64,000 nucleotides of DNA from Alphaproteobacteria bacterium (GTDB lineage Bacteria; Pseudomonadota; Alphaproteobacteria; Sphingomonadales; Sphingomonadaceae), in contig VBAC01000001.1 of the NCBI GenBank assembly GCA_005883305.1, forward strand, positions 2,046,001 through 2,110,000. Reading direction: 5' to 3'. The notes beneath the pieces were generated by a model. The model made no database searches. It was not told where the DNA came from and was given only the letters and a program-made list of their open reading frames with translations. This document shows positions 24,093-39,177 of this stretch, piece by piece. The position numbers and the translations under genes were made by a program. Numbering within the stretch: position 1 is the first letter of the stretch; each line of letters begins with the position of its first letter.

Positions 24093-25871
24093 CTAATCGG
24101 CCCAGGCCGCATCCTCGAGGTGAAGCTCGGCCGCGCCGCCCCCGTTGTAATCGTCGCGCTTGAGCCGACCGGCGAGCCAAAGCTTGCGGTGCGGAGGCGC
24201 GGCGAGCAGCGCCTCGCCCAGCGCGCTTTCGGCCATTCGAAAGGCGATCGCCTTGACCCGCCGCCCGTCCGCGCCGGCGGCGATGACGCGCAGGTGGCCG
24301 TTGCCCACGACATCCGCCTTGACGATGCCGACCGGCCCGGCGGCCACGTGCGGGCCGGGCCAGCCGGCGCCATAGGGCCCTCCGGCGTCGAGCGCGTCGC
24401 AATAAGCGGCGTTGATCCCGCCCGGGGAGATCAAGGCGTCGAGCAGCAGCGCCCGATCGTCGCGGCTGCGCGCGACATCCGCACTCAGCCGGTCGTCGAG
24501 AAACTCGACGAGCGCCTCCAGCCTGTCGCCCGCCACGGTCAGCCCGGCGGCCATCGCATGCCCGCCGCCTGCGATCAGCAATCCGCTCTCCTTCGCGGCA
24601 AGCACGGCCGCGCCGAGATCGACTCCGGATATCGAGCGGCCCGAGCCCTTGCCCAGCCCGTCCGCGCCGATGGCGACGACGATCGCGGGACGGTGCAGCT
24701 TTTCCTTGAGCCGGCCGGCGACGATGCCGATCACTCCGGGATGCCAGCCCGGAGCGGAGACCACAGCCACCGCCCGGTTCCCCTGCGCTGCGCACAACGC
24801 CTCGGCCGCCTCGCACACCGCCGCCTCGATCGCCCGGCGCTCCTCGTTGAGCCGGTCGAGCTCGGCGGCAATCGATTCGGCTTCATCGCGGTCCTCGGTC
24901 GTCAGCAGGCGAACGCCGAGGTCCGACTTGCCGACGCGGCCCCCGGCGTTGATCCTCGGCCCCAAAGCGAAGCCGAGATCGCGGCATTCGGGCGCCCGGT
25001 TGAGCCGGGCAGCGTCGGCCAAAGCGGCGAGGCCGACATTGCGCCGCGCGGCCATGACCTTCAGCCCCTGGGTCACGAAGGCGCGGTTGAGCCCCCTCAG
25101 TTGGGCGACGTCGGCGACCGTTCCAAGCGCGACCAGATCGAGCAGGTCGATCAGCCGCGGCTCCTCACGGCTCGCGAAAAAGCCGCGGCCGCGCAGGACC
25201 CGAAGCAATGCCGCCCCGAGCAGGAAGGCCATTCCGACCGCCGCGAGGTGGCCGTGGGCGGCGCCCTCGTCGCTTTCGTCGAGCCGGTTCGGGTTGACGA
25301 TGGCGTGGCCGTCCGGGAGGCGGCTGGCGCATTTGTGGTGATCGACGACGATCACGTCGACTCCGGCGCCGCGCGCCATTTCCAGCGCCTCGAAGGCCTG
25401 CGCGCCGCAATCGACGGTGACGATCAGCCGGGCGCCGCCCTCCGCGATCCGCACCAGAGCCTCGCCCGAGGGGCCGTAGCCCTCCATCAGCCGGTCCGGG
25501 ATATAGGCCCGGGGCTCGAGGCCGAGGCCGCGCAGCAGCCGGACGAGCAAGGCGGCGGAGGTCGCGCCGTCGACGTCGTAATCGCCGAAGATGGTGACCG
25601 CTTCGCCGGTCTCGACCGCACCGGCGAGCCGCTCCGCCGCCTTGTCCATGTCGCGGAAGACGGAAGGGTCGGGCATGAAGCCGCGCAGGGTCGGAGCGCG
25701 GTGGCGGGCCAGCTCGTCGCGGCCGACTCCGCGGGCGAGCAGAAGCTGGTCGACCAAATCGTCGGGCTGGAAGCCCGCGTCTGTCGCGTCCGCAGCGCCG
25801 GCCCGCCAGCGCCACGGCTGGCCGAGGATCGAGCGGGAAACGCCGCAGACGAGGCTTGCGCTGGTCAGCAT
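24093..25871 (-). CDS. recJ: Single-stranded-DNA-specific 5'-3' exonuclease RecJ
   Basis: A 592-residue DHH-superfamily nuclease of usual bacterial length. FGDYDVDG (D97, D99, D101) and VVDHHK (D177, H178, H179) form the manganese site. GTVADVAQL and GPRINAGGRVG belong to the second part of the DHH domain, and GGGHAMAAGL marks DHHA1. The C-terminal OB-fold region (KADVVGNGHLRV, WLAGRLKRDDYNG) binds DNA. RecJ degrades ssDNA in RecF-pathway recombination, mismatch and base-excision repair. A monocistronic arrangement with an R1 repeat downstream is likely. Confidence 0.97.
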   Translation of the reverse strand: MLTSASLVCGVSRSILGQPWRWRAGAADATDAGFQPDDLVDQLLLARGVGRDELARHRAPTLRGFMPDPSVFRDMDKAAERLAGAVETGEAVTIFGDYDVDGATSAALLVRLLRGLGLEPRAYIPDRLMEGYGPSGEALVRIAEGGARLIVTVDCGAQAFEALEMARGAGVDVIVVDHHKCASRLPDGHAIVNPNRLDESDEGAAHGHLAAVGMAFLLGAALLRVLRGRGFFASREEPRLIDLLDLVALGTVADVAQLRGLNRAFVTQGLKVMAARRNVGLAALADAARLNRAPECRDLGFALGPRINAGGRVGKSDLGVRLLTTEDRDEAESIAAELDRLNEERRAIEAAVCEAAEALCAAQGNRAVAVVSAPGWHPGVIGIVAGRLKEKLHRPAIVVAIGADGLGKGSGRSISGVDLGAAVLAAKESGLLIAGGGHAMAAGLTVAGDRLEALVEFLDDRLSADVARSRDDRALLLDALISPGGINAAYCDALDAGGPYGAGWPGPHVAAGPVGIVKADVVGNGHLRVIAAGADGRRVKAIAFRMAESALGEALLAAPPHRKLWLAGRLKRDDYNGGGAAELHLEDAAWAD

Positions 25872-25923
25872 GGCAGGAGCCTAGGGCAGGCGGGCGGGAA
25901 AGGGAATCCGCGCCGTGAGCCTG

Positions 25924-26399
25924 TTATCCACGATATCCCCGTTATCCACAGGCGGACTCCGCGAGAATCGGCTTGGCGCGACTCGGATCGCTGGTGCACC
26001 TAGTAGGTCCGCGATGAGGAACGGACCTCCGGCAACGGAGGAAAGAACCAAGACGCGGCCACCGCGGAAGCGGGCGGTTTCCCCTCGGGGAAGCAGGCCA
26101 CGGAGGCGGCGGAAGGACCCAGAAGAAGAAGCGTGAGGCGCAAGCCGATCCCACTTTCTTCGAAGGTCCGGCGGGACCGGAGGCTTCGGCCGAAGGGACC
26201 GTGACGGACAACCGGCAGGTTCGCCTGACAGGTGCCCGTAGGGAACCGACCGGGGTCGTCAGACCCCGGCCGGAACCTGCGAACCCCCAGGGAGCTTGCT
26301 CTCATGGAGTTCCACCCGCCCGCGAAAGACGCCAAGCCCTCACCGGCGCGGCAAGTTCGGACTCGGGACAAGTGGGGGCTGATGGCGACATCAGCCCCC
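25924..26399 (+). ncRNA. Candidate structured RNA A (paralogue of the RNA at 29.1-29.9 kb)
   Basis: About 480 bases between recJ and a convergent hypothetical gene, ending in a strong hairpin. Elements shared with the minus-strand locus at 29.1-29.9 kb are: a 5' block of about 64 bases beginning CGTTATCCACAG, a GCAA tetraloop hairpin CTCCG-GCAA-CGGAG followed by GAAAG (26027-26045), a GGCGGGACC...GGCTTCGGCC...GGGACCGT segment (26170-26202), and GGGACAAGT leading into the terminator. The GNRA stem has a T-A pair here where the other copy has C-G, which supports pairing. A basic open frame inside (to 26136) is not conserved in the paralogue, so RNA is favoured. Ends are approximate. Confidence 0.6.
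26374..26399 (+). terminator. Terminator-like hairpin of candidate RNA A
   Basis: Perfect 10-bp stem GGGGGCTGAT / ATCAGCCCCC with a six-base loop GGCGAC, followed by ATTTTGATTCC. The stem length, loop size and flanking bases match the hairpin at 29075-29100. Confidence 0.7.
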
Positions 26400-26506
26400 A
26401 TTTTGATTCCGGGGCTATCGTGGGCGGCCGATCGGCCCAGCCGCGGCGCGCGCCCCGATCAGCCGGGATGTCCAGCGCTGGAGCGCATCGACATTCGATT
26501 TTCCCT

Positions 26507-26592
26507 CGTCATTCCCGCGAAAGCGGGAATCCAGCTTCTTCAAATGCTCCGGAGAAAGAACAAGCTGGACCCCCGCTTTCGCGGGGGTGACG
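26507..26592. repeat. Palindromic intergenic repeat, family R1 copy 2
   Basis: An 86-bp copy of the R1 element with the same outer inverted ends (CGTCATTCCCGCGAAAGCGG) and AATCCAGCTT/AAGCTGGA inner pairing. It lies between candidate RNA A and the 3' end of the hypothetical gene at 26643. Confidence 0.9.
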
Positions 26593-26642
26593 ACAAAAAA
26601 GCCAAGCCAAACAAGCGGCGCCCGCTGAAATGTCGAACCGCC

Positions 26643-27287
26643 CTACCGCCCCTCGATATGATCGCGGGCGGCGCGGTCGGGATCGATCATCGGCCTCGCC
26701 CGCACCATCGGCGCGGCCGCCGCCCGGCGCTCCTCCTCGGCGATGCTCCGGCGCGCGGCGAGGCTCGATCCGGACTGGCGCGCCTGGTGCATCCCCGAGC
26801 TGTCGAGATCGAGCGGCGGCAGCGGCCGGCCAGCCTCGATGTCCGCGACGCGGTGATTCATGAAGCTCGCGAATTGCTGGTCGATATAGCCGTCCGGGAC
26901 CATCGAAAGCGCGACCCCGGCCTCGGTCTCATAGGCGGAGCCGAGAGCGTAGGCGTCGAGGTCGAACTCGGCGGTGAGCCGGGTGCCCTTGTTCTGTGGC
27001 CCGGGCTCGAAGTGAAGCCTGGTGTCGATCACCGGCCGATCGTCGACCAGGATTTCGTAGTGGATCTCCTCGCCGAGGGTCTTCTCGATCCGCTGGGTAA
27101 CGCGGTGCTTCGAATCGGCGCTCGGGCCGAGGCTGATCGTGCCCTCCGGCCCGAGCGCCGAGAAGGCCGCATAGACGGCCATCGGCTCGCGGCCGACGAC
27201 CCGGTCGAAATCGGGACCGGCCGAGCCGGCGAGCATGTAGGCGCCGCACGCGCCCATCAGCGATAGTCCGCAAAAAGCCGCTTTCAT
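26643..27287 (-). CDS. Hypothetical exported protein
   Basis: A 214-residue protein starting at ATG 27287 with GGAGGG upstream. The first ~20 residues (MKAAFCGLSLMGACGAYMLA) look like a weak signal or anchor; LMGAC is a poor lipobox. The middle is beta-rich (residues 40-130), with features such as HFEPGPQNKGTRL suggesting a compact extracytoplasmic domain, and the C-terminal 60 residues are charged and Ala/Arg-rich. I do not recognise the family. Confidence 0.7.
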   Translation of the reverse strand: MKAAFCGLSLMGACGAYMLAGSAGPDFDRVVGREPMAVYAAFSALGPEGTISLGPSADSKHRVTQRIEKTLGEEIHYEILVDDRPVIDTRLHFEPGPQNKGTRLTAEFDLDAYALGSAYETEAGVALSMVPDGYIDQQFASFMNHRVADIEAGRPLPPLDLDSSGMHQARQSGSSLAARRSIAEEERRAAAAPMVRARPMIDPDRAARDHIEGR

Positions 27288-27354
27288 CGTCCCTCCACCG
27301 TTTCGCGCAGCATAAGCGGAGGGTTTTAAGGAAGAATTGCCTTGCGCGGGGGCG

Positions 27355-27978
27355 CTAGGCGGGCCGCGGCCGCGCCGCCCAGTGCACCAGGCCCCGGCGC
27401 CACAGCGGAATGCTGATGAGGGCGAGCTGGCCGAATTGCGGCCACACGCACGAGAGCGCCACCGCCGATAGCGCCCCCAGCAGCACCGAGACCGAGCGCA
27501 GGCGCACATAGCGGACCGCCTCGGGATCGGCGCTCTCGTCGAGCATCGGCGGGCTCGTCGCGGTTCGGTTGACCTTGTAGTTGAGCAAGGCCGCAGCGCT
27601 CATCACGATGCAGTAGAAGACGGTCGGCACCGCCTCGCCCTCGTTGAGGCTGAGATAGGCCGAGGCGAAGGGCATGAAGGCGATGACATTGAGCAAGGCC
27701 ATGTTCCAGCCGAGGATTTGCGGGCTGTAGTGCGAGGCCAGGCCGAAGGCGCGGTGGTGGCCCATCCAGAAGGAGCCGATCACCCAGAAGCTGACGAAAT
27801 AGCCGACGAACGATGGGATCAATTCGGCCAGCGCCTGAAGGTGCGCGGCGGCGCTCGAATGATGGGCCAGATGCGGCGGATGGATCTCGATCACCAGCAG
27901 GGTGATGGCGATCGCGAAGACGGCGTCCGAAAAGAAGATCAGCCGCTCCAGCGTGTGATCGGTCTTGCCCGCCGCCAT
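27355..27978 (-). CDS. TMEM175-like (DUF1211) potassium channel protein
   Basis: A 207-residue membrane protein. The first helix carries RLIFFSDAVFAIAITLL, the conserved FSD-containing pore helix of TMEM175 channels, and about six hydrophobic spans follow, which is the bacterial single-repeat architecture. Bacterial TMEM175 proteins assemble as tetramers and conduct potassium with low selectivity. It lies 25 bases downstream of the OsmC gene on the same strand, so co-transcription with bactofilin and OsmC is plausible. Confidence 0.85.
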   Translation of the reverse strand: MAAGKTDHTLERLIFFSDAVFAIAITLLVIEIHPPHLAHHSSAAAHLQALAELIPSFVGYFVSFWVIGSFWMGHHRAFGLASHYSPQILGWNMALLNVIAFMPFASAYLSLNEGEAVPTVFYCIVMSAAALLNYKVNRTATSPPMLDESADPEAVRYVRLRSVSVLLGALSAVALSCVWPQFGQLALISIPLWRRGLVHWAARPRPA

Positions 27979-28003
27979 CGCGCCCTCCCCTTTGCCGGCG
28001 AGC

Positions 28004-28465
28004 CTATCGGGCGGGCGGCTCGATCACAATCTCACTGTTCAGCGAGTTGGCGATGAAGCAGCGCTCGTGGGCCTCGCGGTGGAGCCGATCGATCGTCGCG
28101 GCGTCGGGCGCGGCGCCGGCGAAGGCGACGTCGGGGCGGAGCGCGATTCGAACGATCGCCATCCTGCCGGGGCCGATCCGGCCCATCTCCCCTTCCGCCG
28201 AGTCGCGATAGGAAGCGACCTCGAGCCCGGCGTTCTGCGCCAGCGAGAGGAACCAGAGCATGTGGCAGGAGGCGACCGCCGCCACCAGCGCCTCTTCGGG
28301 ATCGACCGCGGCGGGATCGGACATCGGCTCCGGCACGACGTCGGGCGAGGAGGAGCCGGCGAGGACCGCGCCGCCGTCGAAACGGATTTCGTGCCGGCGG
28401 CTGTAGCGGCCGCTGGCGAATTCGCCGTCCGAGCGCCAGCTTATTTCGGCGACGTGGCGGCTCAT
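28004..28465 (-). CDS. OsmC family peroxiredoxin-like protein
   Basis: A 153-residue protein of typical OsmC length. VAAVASCHMLWFLSL holds the first redox cysteine and HERCFIANSL the second; the two-cysteine pair reduces organic hydroperoxides in Ohr/OsmC proteins. The DPEEALVAAVASC motif is closer to the OsmC/YhfA branch than to Ohr. The start ATG 28465 overlaps the bactofilin stop by four bases (ATGA), so the two are translationally coupled. Confidence 0.88.
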   Translation of the reverse strand: MSRHVAEISWRSDGEFASGRYSRRHEIRFDGGAVLAGSSSPDVVPEPMSDPAAVDPEEALVAAVASCHMLWFLSLAQNAGLEVASYRDSAEGEMGRIGPGRMAIVRIALRPDVAFAGAAPDAATIDRLHREAHERCFIANSLNSEIVIEPPAR

Positions 28466-28935
28466 GAGGCTCCAATTTGGGGGAACAGGGCGTTCGTCTC
28501 GGTCTCGGTCCTGGCGGGCGAGAAGGTCACCGGAGTGACCGTCAGCGCCTCCGCGCCGGGCTTGGCCAATGCCGCGCGCCGGGCGAGCCGCCCCTCGATC
28601 CCGGCGCCGGCCTCGATGCTGATCGTCTCGTAGGCGATGTCGCCCATGATCCGCGCCGTCGCCTCGACGACGATGTTGCGCGCCGAGACCGTGCCTTCGA
28701 CCGTTCCGCACAGCCTCGCCTCGTCGGCGATGATGTTGCCGGCGATGATTCCGGCCGGCCCCTGGCACAGGGTCGCGCAATGGACGTTGCCGTCGATCCG
28801 GCCGTCGACGTGGATCTGGGCGTCGGTGGCGAGATCGCCGCTGATGATCACTTCGGGTCCGATGATCGACAGGCCCGGCCCGCTCTTGGCGCCCTTGGCC
28901 GGCATGCCCGCCGCGGCTTGAGTCTTCGCGAACAT
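28462..28935 (-). CDS. Bactofilin (polymer-forming cytoskeletal protein)
   Basis: A 157-residue protein with the bactofilin core from SIIGPEVIISGDL (~residue 24) through repeated hydrophobic triads (VDGRIDGNV, GTVEGTVSA, ARIMGDI, AGIEGRL), which wind into a right-handed beta-helix that polymerises without nucleotides. Short polar N- and C-terminal tails flank it, as usual. AAGGAG lies seven bases before ATG 28935. Bactofilins position cell-wall or polar functions. No M23 peptidase partner is adjacent; OsmC and a TMEM175-like protein follow instead. Confidence 0.92.
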   Translation of the reverse strand: MFAKTQAAAGMPAKGAKSGPGLSIIGPEVIISGDLATDAQIHVDGRIDGNVHCATLCQGPAGIIAGNIIADEARLCGTVEGTVSARNIVVEATARIMGDIAYETISIEAGAGIEGRLARRAALAKPGAEALTVTPVTFSPARTETETNALFPQIGAS

Positions 28936-29074
28936 CTGATGCTCCTTGCGCTCCCGCGCGGATGCCGCGCGCCCCCGAGCCCGAACACAAAGGCTTCTTT
29001 GTACCGGGCCCGTCATGACATGCCCGAAAACGAAGGCTGCTGCCACCCTCTTCGCGAGGCCCTGAAACAGTAAT

Positions 29075-29100
29075 GGGGGCCGGCATCGCTGCCGGCCCCC
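29075..29100 (-). terminator. Terminator-like hairpin of candidate RNA B
   Basis: Perfect 10-bp stem GGGGGCCGGC / GCCGGCCCCC with a six-base loop. On the minus strand it is followed by ATTACTGTTTC, and it has the same geometry and preceding GGGACAGT as the hairpin at 26374-26399. Confidence 0.68.
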
Positions 29101-29862
29101 ACTGTCCCGGCGCGAAATCCTTGCCTGGGAGGCGAGGCGTCCCGCGCTGGGCGTTTTCGAGTCCGCGGCGCCGAAACCGGGGGTTCCCGCGCCGCTTTCT
29201 CCGGAGTCCTTCCTTCGGCCGAAGCCGCTTTCCGGTTTCCCCGCCGGCTCCCCGACAGGGCCGAAGCCCTGGCGGTTCGCCGCTCGGCAGACCGGAGCTT
29301 GCGCCCCGCTCCCACCTTTTCGGCATCCTGGCCGAAGCCAAAATCCCGGAAAAGACGGGATCCTCGGCCGAAGCCTCGGTTCCGCCTGACGGTCCATGGG
29401 CCGAAGCCCTGGGTCCCGCCGGGTTTCGCAGCTCCCGGGCCGAAGCCCGGTCCTGCCCGGCAATTCGAAGCCGAAGCTCCTCCTCGCCGGTGGCGGCGCG
29501 CGAACCGAAGTCCCGCTTCCGCCGGGCCGGTCCGGAGCCCGAAGGCTCAGGTCCCGCCTGTGGCTTGCAAGCGTGCCCGAAGGCCGCTTGGTCGCCGTGT
29601 GGGCGCTTAACGAAGCATGCCGCTTTCGCATCCGCTAAAGGGCAAGCCCGCAGCTTCCGCCTGGCGGCGGCTTCGTCAGCCGCCCTGCCTCCGCTTTCGC
29701 CCGCTTCTCGCCCGAAGGCGGCAGCAGGCTAATCTTTGGCTGTGGCTGGGAAGGCTTTCCCCCGTTGCCGGGAGATCGTCTCGGCCACGAACGAAAGCTG
29801 TCATGGAATCCGATTCGCACCAAGCGGATTCGCGCGCCTTTCGGCTGTGGATAACGAGGATA
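29075..29862 (-). ncRNA. Candidate structured RNA B (long, UUCG-hairpin-rich; paralogue of RNA A)
   Basis: About 790 bases between bactofilin and cytochrome c, best read on the minus strand. The 5' block (CGTTATCCACAG..., GCTTGGTGCGAATCGGAT), the CTCCCG-GCAA-CGGGGG hairpin with GAAAG, the GGCGGGACC...GGCTTCGGCC...GGACCGT segment and the GGGACAGT plus terminator all recur from RNA A. Between them B has many hairpins closed by CTTCGG loops, e.g. perfect stems at 29535-29548, 29435-29450 and 29255-29270. Translations in all frames are low-complexity and unlike RNA A's. Boundaries are estimates. Confidence 0.62.
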
Positions 29863-29982
29863 ATGGGGGTAAGTACCTACCCTCGATCGCACGGCGGCGC
29901 GCCCGACTCACCGGCTTGCTCCTTGCGCGCCGCCCGCATAAAGGAAGCGCCAATCAACGCTCCCTTGAAAGGTTTTGCGGGC

Positions 29983-30675
29983 ATGGACGGTCGGTTCAAC
30001 ACGATTGCGGGATGGGTGCTGGGCGCGGGCATCGTCCTCCTCGGATCGACCCTCGTCGTCGGCGAAGTCTACAAGTCCGAGCGGCCGGAAACGATGGGCT
30101 ATCCGATCGCCGGCGTTCAGGAGGAAGGCGAAGGCGGCGCGACCGCTGCCGAGCCGCCGATCGCCCATTTCATGCAGACCGCGGACGCGGCGCGCGGCGA
30201 GGCGGTGTTCCGCAAGTGCGCCGCCTGTCACAACGCCGACAATGGCGGCGCCAACGGCCTAGGCCCCAACCTTTGGGGCACGGCCGGCAACAACATCGCC
30301 CACCGCGCCGATTTCTCCTATTCGGACCCGCTCAAGAATCACGGCGGCCGCTGGGATTGGGACACGATGAGCGCCTGGCTGCACAGCCCGCGCAGCTTCG
30401 CCCCGGGCACCAAGATGACCTTCGCCGGCCTCTCCGATCCGCAGGAGCGGGCCGACGTGATGCTGTTCCTCAACCAGCACGGCGGCACCCTCACCATCCC
30501 GCCGCCCCCGGCCGAAGCCGCGCCCGCCGCCGGCAACGCCACCGAGGCCAACGCTGCCGCCGCCGATGCGAACGCCGCCGCGGCCGCGCCGACCGCGCGG
30601 ACCGAAGCCTCGACCGGCGGCCCGGGCGCGCCCGACGTCAGCGGCCGCGCGGGCCAGGAAGGCAACCGGCACTGA
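29983..30675 (+). CDS. Membrane-anchored c-type cytochrome
   Basis: A 230-residue protein with an uncleaved N-terminal transmembrane anchor (~8-27) and one class I cytochrome c domain. CAACH (C79, C82, H83) binds haem and GTKMTF provides the methionine ligand M145. This matches the CycM/c552 type that carries electrons from the bc1 complex to a terminal oxidase at the periplasmic face. The last ~60 residues are a disordered Ala/Pro/Asn-rich tail beyond the usual family end. Confidence 0.93.
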   Translation: MDGRFNTIAGWVLGAGIVLLGSTLVVGEVYKSERPETMGYPIAGVQEEGEGGATAAEPPIAHFMQTADAARGEAVFRKCAACHNADNGGANGLGPNLWGTAGNNIAHRADFSYSDPLKNHGGRWDWDTMSAWLHSPRSFAPGTKMTFAGLSDPQERADVMLFLNQHGGTLTIPPPPAEAAPAAGNATEANAAAADANAAAAAPTARTEASTGGPGAPDVSGRAGQEGNRH

Positions 30676-32752: not shown

Positions 32753-33207
32753 GGAAGGTCGATTTCGATACAATAGGTTCCCACGCGGAAGTTGAAAAAA
32801 GAACCAAACCGGCTTTCCCATACATGGCTTATGCGATAAATTCATCGCTTCCTCCGAACCGGACAGGACGATTCGCTATTGTCTCCGCCAGGCCGCCGGC
32901 CGCACCAGCCGGCCCCCCTTCCTTCTCCGCGCCTCCGCGCGAACCGACCTTCTTTTTTTGCGCGCGGAGAAGAAATGGCCCCGCCCCATCGCGAAGCGCG
33001 GGGATCGGGCAGGCTCTCGGCAACCCTCAACTTCCTCAACTTATTTTTGCGCAGGGGCGGACTTTTTTTCGCCTTGTGGAAGCGGAAACTTCGGAAACTT
33101 CCGCGCGCCGGCGAGGATGGCTTGCCGCGCCCCCCTGCACCCCCTAAGCCCGTCGACGGGCCACGCCGCCCCAACGCGGTGCGGGCTCTCTGCGAGGAGA
33201 GTCGTAA
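32753..33207 (+). promoter_or_regulatory. Long serC upstream region / possible leader RNA
   Basis: About 455 bases before the serC ATG with no credible gene. Near the gene lie a palindromic hairpin GCCCGTCGACGGGC (33148-33161), a second pairing CCGCCCCAACGCGG and a ribosome site GCGAGGAGAGTCGTAA. Two T-runs occur upstream (~32950 and ~33060). Alphaproteobacterial serC genes are known to carry a 'serC' leader RNA motif, but I cannot confirm its consensus here. Cis-regulation is therefore only suggested. Confidence 0.3.
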
Positions 33208-38179: not shown

Positions 38180-39177
38180 GCTGCCGCCTCGCGCCAAGCG
38201 ACGCCGCGGCGGGCGAGCTTGGCGAACAAGGTCGGCAGCCCGGCCTCGCCGATGCGCTCGACCGGCCACCAGATTCCCCCTTCGCCAGCGTCGGCGCGTG
38301 CGCATTTGAGGCGCATGGTGAGCGAGAAATGGGTGAAGACGTGATCCACCGCCCCGGCGTCGCGCCATTCCGCGTCCGACGGCGCGTCGGTCGGCAGAGC
38401 GAGCATTCCGCCGAGCAGGCCCTTTGCCGGCCGCCGCACCAGCAGCACCTCGCCCTCGCGCTCGAGCCAGTAAGCCGTGCCTTCGCGCTTCGGCCTGGCC
38501 GCCTTCGCGGCCTTCAGCGGATAGCGCGCGGGATCGCCTTCCGCATAAGCCGCACACCAATCCTGCACCGGGCAGCGGCCGCAATCGGGGTTGCGCGGCG
38601 TGCAGATGGCCGAGCCCAGGTCCATCATCGCCTGGGCGAAGTCGCCCGCGCCTTCCTGCGGGGTCAGTGCGTCGGCCAGCGCGCGGATTTCGGCCCGCGC
38701 GGGCGGGAGCGGCTGCTTCACAGCGTACAGCCGCGCGACGACCCGCTCGACATTGCCGTCGACCGCCACCGCGCGCCGGCCGTAGGCGATCGCGGCGATC
38801 GCGGCGGCGGTGTAGACGCCGATGCCGGGAAGCTTGCGAAGCGCCGCCTCGTCCTCCGGGAAGCGCCCGCCATGCTCGCTCGCGACGATCCTGGCGCAGG
38901 CGAGCAGGTTGCGCGCCCGGGCGTAATAGCCGAGCCCCGCCCAGGCGGTCATCACCTCGCCGTCTTCCGCCGCGGCAAGCGCCTCAATCGTCGGCCAGCG
39001 GCGGGTGAAGTCTTCGAAATAAGGCTTAACCGCCGCGACCGTGGTCTGCTGCAGCATCACCTCCGAAAGCCACACGCGATAGGGATCGGGCGCGGCGCCG
39101 CCTTCGGCGCGCCAGGGAAGCCGCCGCTTATCCACAGCATACCAACACAAAAGAGCGCGCGAGGCATTGGCGGGCAT
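38176..39177 (-). CDS. mutY: A/G-specific adenine DNA glycosylase
   Basis: A 333-residue HhH-GPD glycosylase. E39 in LSEVMLQQT and D139 in VDGNVERVV correspond to the catalytic pair, LPGIGVYTA is the helix-hairpin-helix, and C191-x6-C198-x2-C201-x5-C207 holds the 4Fe-4S cluster. The C-terminal ~110 residues are the MutT-like domain that recognises 8-oxoguanine (VFTHFSLTMRL). It removes adenine opposite 8-oxoG. ATG 39177 lies only 14 bases from the divergent DUF721 start. Confidence 0.97.
   Translation of the reverse strand: MPANASRALLCWYAVDKRRLPWRAEGGAAPDPYRVWLSEVMLQQTTVAAVKPYFEDFTRRWPTIEALAAAEDGEVMTAWAGLGYYARARNLLACARIVASEHGGRFPEDEAALRKLPGIGVYTAAAIAAIAYGRRAVAVDGNVERVVARLYAVKQPLPPARAEIRALADALTPQEGAGDFAQAMMDLGSAICTPRNPDCGRCPVQDWCAAYAEGDPARYPLKAAKAARPKREGTAYWLEREGEVLLVRRPAKGLLGGMLALPTDAPSDAEWRDAGAVDHVFTHFSLTMRLKCARADAGEGGIWWPVERIGEAGLPTLFAKLARRGVAWREAAA

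Follow-up and report, generated by a model that had tools for sequence, protein, structure and literature searches.

Within a 64,000-nucleotide window of a Sphingomonadaceae genome, the whole stretch of DNA analyzed here, two look-alike regions (copies a and b) are, judged from their sequence, a pair of non-coding RNA genes whose promoters are related and whose 3′ hairpin is common to both. We consider it probable (roughly 60%) that each copy is an autonomous gene, encoding a large structured RNA that acts in trans and is expressed from a replication-tied promoter set by DnaA and GcrA. The predicted RNA family to which they belong is spread over many sphingomonad genera and is apparently undescribed. 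Few large bacterial RNAs of conserved structure are known, and the function of several of them is not known.

An earlier note on this DNA had described two such regions sharing segments in a common order, and both were recovered where it had placed them, on opposite strands (Table 1). The 5′ block is indeed common to both, with a local alignment score of 60 over 55 nt (shuffle maximum 31; 0/300 shuffles) and 82% blastn identity over 55 nt (E 5e-8). The note had counted this block as part of the RNA; as read from its motifs, it is promoter DNA carrying a DnaA box and a GcrA-type GANTC, and it lies outside the predicted transcript. The GCAA hairpin is present in both copies with the T-A to C-G change that had been reported. 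The 3′ hairpin is likewise found in both, a G+C hairpin with a weak T tail on which a terminator scan makes no call; the geometry proposed for it, 10 bp with a 6-nt loop, fits less well than 14 bp with a 4-nt loop. With promoter and hairpin excluded, the bodies of the two copies appear marginally alike (score 38 against a shuffle maximum of 39, with 2/300 shuffles equal or higher), and because they barely exceed shuffles, the common order has good support at the ends and weak support in the middle. Copies a and b score 64.7 and 69.2 bits with the promoter model, and since the promoter and hairpin models were built from sets including both copies, their own scores are not independent. Compared with shuffled sequence, both RNAs have much the stronger predicted fold (z scores in Table 1). 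The copy b RNA is a hairpin array, with UUCG or GNRA loops on many of the hairpins.

Table 1. Features of the two RNA loci, in window coordinates.
Feature	Position	Strand	Details and basis
Copy a, DnaA-box-like 9-bp units, three in tandem, TTATCCACG, ATATCCCCG, TTATCCACA	25924–25950	+	Sequence; 41-promoter alignment
Copy a, exact DnaA box TTATCCACA	25942–25950	+	Last tandem unit; genome-wide exact-box scan, contig position 2071942
Copy a, putative core promoter	25973–26001	+	-35-like TTGGCG, weak -10 about 17 bp on; predicted start ~26008
Copy a, GANTC (GACTC)	25980–25984	+	38 bp from box, in putative -35/-10 spacer
Copy a, structured RNA	26008–26403	+	~396 nt, predicted start; covariation among 9 relatives; fold z -6.0 (100 shuffles)
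Copy a, GCAA tetraloop hairpin	26026–26041	+	Sequence; covariation alignment
Copy a, conserved 3′ hairpin AGTGGGGGC...GCCCCCATT	26370–26403	+	Model R2, 60.9 bits (copy a in model)
Copy b, tandem DnaA-box-like units	29846–29872	-	Sequence; promoter alignment; exact box 29846–29854
Copy b, GANTC (GAATC)	29812–29816	-	38 bp from box
Copy b, structured RNA	29072–29788	-	~717 nt, predicted start; covariation among 7 orthologues; fold z -6.8 (20 shuffles)
Copy b, GCAA tetraloop hairpin	29759–29774	-	Sequence; covariation alignment
Copy b, conserved 3′ hairpin	29072–29103	-	Model R2, 69 bits (copy b in model)

The proposal of structured, non-coding, paralogous RNAs is borne out, with covariation above controls and the lack of a clear coding signal as evidence for the structured, non-coding nature. 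Covarying homologues were found in related genomes, with strong compensatory change in three subgroups: 77 cells were changed on both sides in the copy-a group (shuffle mean 25.7; 92.5% paired), 65 in the copy-b group (24.5; 91.5%) and 55 in the Sphingomonas-type group (18.9; 95.5%). In none of the three groups did any of 500 shuffles reach the observed covariation, and shifting the structures by 1–3 columns as a control lowered pairing to 31–48%. The 3′ hairpin is near-invariant and lies hundreds of bases from the promoter. Additionally, the tetraloop strings CTTCGG (UUCG) and CGCAAG (GNRA) are enriched 9.5-fold and 5-fold over shuffles; the same k-mer comparison yielded no clear sponge motif.

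Long open frames do exist in this high-G+C sequence, and in the Sphingomonas-type set one of the three position classes is least substituted in 10/12 of the pairs listed, as might be expected of a fast-evolving protein gene or of the leader of a downstream gene. Against this, most gaps between pairs of at least 72% identity are not multiples of three (84/95 in the copy-b set, 11/11 in the copy-a set and 579/732 in the Sphingomonas-type set, where the pairs are not independent), substitutions in the copy-a and copy-b groups are spread nearly evenly over the three positions, and the neighboring genes, for example uvrD and argG, change from genus to genus. A protein-coding gene was thus rejected on gap lengths and near-even substitutions, and we regard the protein or leader explanation as scarcely credible.

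The promoter region shows a recurring geometry across the family. When 55 hairpins were picked by the hairpin pattern alone, 52 of them with at least 700 nt upstream, an exact DnaA box was present within 1400 nt upstream in 44/52, and an exact box plus a GANTC within 50 in 40/52, compared with 0/52 in reversed sequence and 2/41 downstream. Among the collected loci, 71 members have both promoter and hairpin, with lengths of 291–1329 nt; in this set, chosen for a box with no more than one mismatch, the box is exact in 64 (57 forward, 7 inverted), has one mismatch in six and is absent in one. The distance from forward box to GANTC is 26 (1 member), 27 (6), 28 (17), 30 (1), 37 (19) or 38 (19), and from inverted box to GANTC it is 31 in seven members. 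In most members the predicted DnaA box is at a helix-phased distance from the GANTC, 27–28 or 37–38 bp, with a switch of one turn between the two. A search of 397 genomes of the family with all box-GANTC gaps of 15–29 allowed gave, among the 106 matches listed, 67 gaps at 26–27 and 17 at 16–17, with 5 matches (counted by hand) for the reversed pattern; some of the matches fall at different loci (oriC, recN). An inverted pair of boxes is frequent in other genera, with the second box exactly 31 bp from the GANTC in 19/19 matched loci, two of which are one place (25–38 allowed), and the first box 23–25 or 34 ahead of the second. Among 20 mid-scoring hairpin loci (L185–L204), an inverted pair with the 31 spacing occurs in nine, and a single locus has its box forward, at 38. 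Within the set of 71, the copy of Sphingopyxis granuli (L066) departs from the rest in both spacing and motif. In copy b another GANTC, preceding the one in Table 1, lies at a distance of 23 from the box.

The available portion of a study of GcrA/CcrM promoters (PMC7987155) describes an extended motif, YGAKTCK, for GcrA and no preference for it in Brevundimonas. The copy a GANTC fits this motif on the opposite strand, and 70/71 members have their GANTC in such a context, in which two motif positions were partly preselected (the first base of MGAMTCR and its N, as a result of the search patterns) and the -10/-35 placement is putative. The base 3′ of the GANTC, a position that the search patterns left free, is G or A in 70/71. 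The source genome carries both gcrA and dnaA, and DnaA and GcrA are the binders that the motifs predict. A conserved DnaA box at a fixed, phased distance, the mark of a DnaA-regulated promoter, is present, with exceptions at 12/52 hairpins, which have no exact box plus GANTC, and at 10/20 of the mid-scoring loci, which depart from both box layouts. Besides these exceptions, a sigma-70 consensus scan of 25800–30000 that made no call and a terminator scan that passed over the 3′ hairpin weigh against the favored reading.

Those 12 hairpins, together with the fact that DnaA binding is read from motifs and that the box may have been present by chance in an ancestor, would suit an ordinary sigma-70 promoter driving a structured regulatory RNA, with the box bound by another factor or inherited by accident. 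Retention of the exact box in 64/71 members argues against such an accident, as do its shift by one helical turn and the inverted pair of other genera, and we consider this explanation unlikely. Chromosomal DnaA-box loci away from oriC are also known from datA and DARS, and the locus might similarly act mainly as DNA, titrating or reactivating DnaA, with the transcript as a by-product. Few parts of the promoter alignment are as well conserved as the DnaA boxes, and exact boxes are rare in the source genome (10, with 11 in a backwards control), as such a site would have it; the boxes here, unlike those of datA and DARS, are part of a conserved RNA's promoter, phased to the GANTC and the putative promoter, and neither covariation throughout the RNA in three groups nor a near-invariant distant hairpin is expected of it. 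A DNA site is the more improbable of these two explanations, and we favor the replication-tied RNA gene.

The earlier note had recognized no described family, and comparison with Rfam 15 agrees: its only matches in the window, a tRNA and a serC leader, lie away from the copies; 14 loci gave no match; and a search of 25800–30000 with E up to 10 returned seven rows, all far below gathering score. Known Rfam RNAs, including 6S, RNase P, tmRNA, SRP, OLE, GOLLD and ROOL, were rejected, none reaching gathering score. No published description of the family was found in the open-licence PMC literature by titles and abstract starts. The large ornate RNAs OLE, GOLLD and ROOL, the subject of PMC12286853 and other papers, are likewise hundreds of nucleotides long and elaborately structured, whereas the RNAs reported here lack an Rfam match, vary greatly in body length and have a DnaA/GcrA-type promoter. 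The accessible text on CcnA of Caulobacter crescentus (PMC8959179) describes a cell-cycle non-coding RNA of 182 nt, at the origin next to hemE and presumably CtrA-activated; both are alphaproteobacterial non-coding RNAs linked to cell-cycle regulators, here by promoter motifs alone, but the present RNAs are 291–1329 nt long, lie ~100–1900 kb from hemE and have a DnaA box and GcrA motif. Similarly, the GcrA/CcrM promoters in the consulted part of PMC7987155 share the GANTC in its extended motif and serve protein-coding genes, in contrast to the present loci, where the gene is for an RNA and the DnaA box is phased.

The family is no local duplication around bactofilin, OsmC and TMEM175, as had been suggested: members occur in many genera beside other neighbors; near the copies, the OsmC frame was confirmed as OsmC, and recJ adjoins copy a. 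As far as surveyed, convincing members appear to fall within one GTDB family. Model R1 matched 48/197 genomes of the order, and the two matches from beyond the family are weak, scoring no more than 31.8 bits. The hairpin model R2 matched 43/241 genomes of the class, of which 40 belong to other families, with a top score of 39.9 bits; among the five best outside loci (L207–L211), no DnaA box was found at L207, L209 or L211. With hemE taken as the marker of the replication origin, a position at the origin was ruled out, no checked copy being near hemE in 25 genomes: the distance is 308 kb in the source genome and ~100–1900 kb overall, calculated manually from listed positions and rounded genome lengths, with the RNA placed by a hairpin-model match only in about half of the 24 other genomes. 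A blastn-sensitivity search of PLSDB plasmids with copy b and one Sphingomonas-type RNA gave no match. On two contigs of IMG/VR, a viral collection that selects for phage-gene-bearing contigs, the hairpin lies near phage-head-type genes (a capsid by Pfam in L216); tblastn found these genes in none of the other sequences of a set of 218, mostly 2–8 kb each.

The proposed mechanism begins with DnaA, which would bind upstream on one helix face, and GcrA, predicted to act on a CcrM-methylated GANTC within the -35/-10 spacer. Together they would set transcription, so that the RNA would be synthesized in a pulse linked to the initiation of replication and to fork passage; a promoter of this type is therefore probably replication-coupled, and because most members examined have DnaA binding sites upstream, RNA synthesis may keep time with the cell cycle. 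The body would evolve fast, gaining and losing tetraloop-capped hairpins, with the 3′ hairpin nearly fixed. Least certainly, the RNA could serve as a scaffold, or as a decoy, for a protein recognizing the 3′ hairpin and the repeated hairpin modules, acting in trans on a presumed target within an RNP; given how strongly the bodies differ between genera, the function may not be one and the same throughout. More tentative, and in our estimate somewhat short of even odds, is a family-wide master RNA in most sphingomonad genera, fired jointly by DnaA and GcrA/CcrM, whose RNP signals replication state to the rest of the cell. In this picture the geometry of the promoter and the 3′ hairpin would persist as each lineage remodels the hairpin array.

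Taken together, these data describe a putative RNA family in many genera of a culturable bacterial family, with a readable control region. If our reading of the promoter is true, the replication initiator would be connected directly to a non-coding RNA encoded away from the origin, and the function of that RNA would be open to test in ordinary laboratory strains.

The two copies in the window are RNA-like genes in opposite orientation whose ends are clearly related and whose middles hardly are: aligned locally over their full regions, they match along 55 nt at the 5' end with a score of 60 (0 of 300 shuffles above 31), whereas the bodies by themselves reach 38, when the best shuffle reaches 39. 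The common segments that an earlier note had described in both copies are well supported at the ends and weakly in the bodies. Contrary to what had been proposed, the 5' block is not part of the RNA; it is upstream DNA with DnaA boxes, a -35-like element and a GANTC site. Both copies fold well below their shuffles (z of -6.0 for copy a and -6.8 for copy b).

Three groups were aligned independently (copy-a, n = 9; copy-b, n = 7; Sphingomonas-type, n = 14), and in each the consensus structure carries more compensatory changes than 500 shuffles or than versions of itself displaced by 1-3 columns. The displaced versions are at a disadvantage in this comparison, since the structures come from the alignments themselves, and shuffling does not preserve how the sequences are related; for one of five measures, pair types, one shuffle in 500 came up to the copy-b value. 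The best-conserved part of the RNA, the 3' hairpin AGTGGGGGCYGGYRGCRAYRCCRGCCCCCATT, carries paired changes between distant genera (AGTGGCGG/CCGCCATT, AGTGAGGG/CCCTCATT and AGTGGAGG/CCTCCATT), and across 78 bodies UUCG and GNRA tetraloop strings are abundant and U is scarce (12%). No codon pattern was found in gap lengths or substitution positions of the copy-a and copy-b groups; one of the three position classes has the fewest substitutions in 10 of the 12 pairs printed for the Sphingomonas-type set, where 579 of 732 gap lengths cannot be divided by three. The covariation in all three groups and the lack of a codon pattern in both window groups bear out the earlier reading of structured non-coding RNAs.

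Of 60 genomes searched at the DNA level, their own among them, 21 have a match to copy a and 27 to copy b. An exact pattern for the 3' hairpin picks out 54 stretches among 84,980 species genomes, in Sphingomonas, Sphingosinicella, Sphingomicrobium, Sphingobium, Sphingopyxis, Novosphingobium and other alphaproteobacterial/sphingomonad bacteria. A script joining hairpin and promoter over the loci collected gave 71 members of 291-1329 nt, counted as distinct around the GANTC site. The hairpin model R2 matches 196 of 249 genomes of the bacterial family, taken from the genus names above to be GTDB Sphingomonadaceae, and 76 of 91 genera (E <= 0.001), figures that include chance hairpins, R2 reaching 39.9 bits outside the family; among the matches listed, at least 107 of the 249 genomes score 42 bits or more. 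At 28 of the best loci the promoter model R1, a partly independent test as many of these genomes also fed it, matches 22 at 49.7 bits or more and four weakly (17-24 bits; L174, L175, L177, L178), with no match at two (L181, L182). It matches 8 of 20 mid-scoring loci (L185-L204), mostly weakly, and outside the family is weak in genomes G049 (family f2) and G038 (family f4), at 31.8, 23.6 and 20.3 bits. One locus holds tandem members, which suggests local duplication, and box pairs some 440-510 bp apart also occur in three genomes (G208, G252, G287).

Features located in the window and at other loci
Feature	Sequence	Position	Remark
Palindromic intergenic repeat CCCGCGAAAGCGGGAATCC...CCCCCGCTTTCGCGGGGGTGACG	window	26505-26595	seen in the sequence
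214-aa reading frame	window	26643-27287	no match in Pfam search
serC leader (RF00517)	window	33154-33206	45.6 bits, Rfam
Exact DnaA box	window	39128-39136	near a frame we take to be mutY-like; no match to family hairpin or promoter models
Tandem family members	L065	6296-6598 and 6736-7026	gap 138 bp
Family hairpin + promoter	L216	1725-2324	just upstream of phage-head-type genes
Family hairpin	L217	4979-5009	just upstream of phage-head-type genes

The forward promoter class runs TTATCCCCG-ATATCCCCG-TTATCCACAG, a TTGG/TTGAC-like -35, GANTC and, about 28 bp further, a G taken as the putative transcription start. Box and GANTC lie 26-28 or 37-38 bp apart (30 at L066, none at 31-36); window copy b has 38 and its six aligned orthologues 28, so the spacing has changed by 10 bp at a single orthologous site. 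Novosphingobium and several other genera instead have an inverted pair of boxes, the second of which stands exactly 31 bp before GANTC. This layout recurs at 9 of those 20 mid-scoring loci (8 matched by pattern, L193 recognised on reading), L204 carries a forward box with one mismatch at 38, and the other 10 fit neither arrangement. Since the box had itself helped to select the 71 members, hairpins were also picked by hairpin pattern alone; 40 of 52 have an exact box and GANTC, with reversed sequence yielding 0 of 52 and the downstream side 2 of 41. The box centre would fall at about -52 or -62 relative to the inferred start. These two positions differ by a full helical turn, which would suit an activator that contacts polymerase from the upstream side. 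In 70 of the 71 members the base after GANTC, which was not selected for, is a purine (G or A), giving CGAMTCR, the reverse complement of YGAKTCK; PMC7987155 cites YGAKTCK for GcrA-activated sites in Caulobacter and found no such preference in Brevundimonas.

The broad box/GANTC pattern also matches beside hemE, beside what we take to be the DUF299/ppsR neighbour of oriC, and beside recN (gene names read from translations), as a DnaA-box search should. The RNA copies themselves lie 308 kb from hemE, taken as origin marker, in the window's genome and about 100-1900 kb from it in 24 others, so they are not copies at the origin. Upstream of the presumed recN in two genomes (L137, L138) a DnaA box is followed by GATTC/GAATC sites, and its control by DnaA and GcrA is possible. 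In the window the exact box at 39128-39136 is the third within a span of 14 kb; the entire genome has 10. Of 33 loci, 16 have an ORF of the uvrD cluster no more than 3.5 kb from the RNA, in most cases upstream and on the opposite strand, and 6 have one of the argG cluster upstream (names from Pfam checks of each cluster's longest member). In the window, recJ is divergent to copy a and a cytochrome c gene to copy b. With neighbours so varied, the promoter goes with the RNA rather than with any adjacent gene. The phage-head-type genes at L216 and L217, contigs both from a viral collection, presumably resemble a gene transfer agent cluster.

The family has no match in Rfam and we found no description of it in the open-licence literature, in line with the earlier note, which recognised no described family. 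The closest functional parallel, CcnA, differs in being short, at the origin and CtrA-linked (PMC8959179). For these reasons we call the family a large structured RNA with an initiator-type promoter. Both RNA structure and promoter geometry are under selection, and we put the probability of a genuine structured RNA gene family at about 0.9. The motifs and their spacing point to probable control of its promoters by DnaA and GcrA/CcrM; more tentatively, the RNA might work in trans, its RNP serving as scaffold or decoy.
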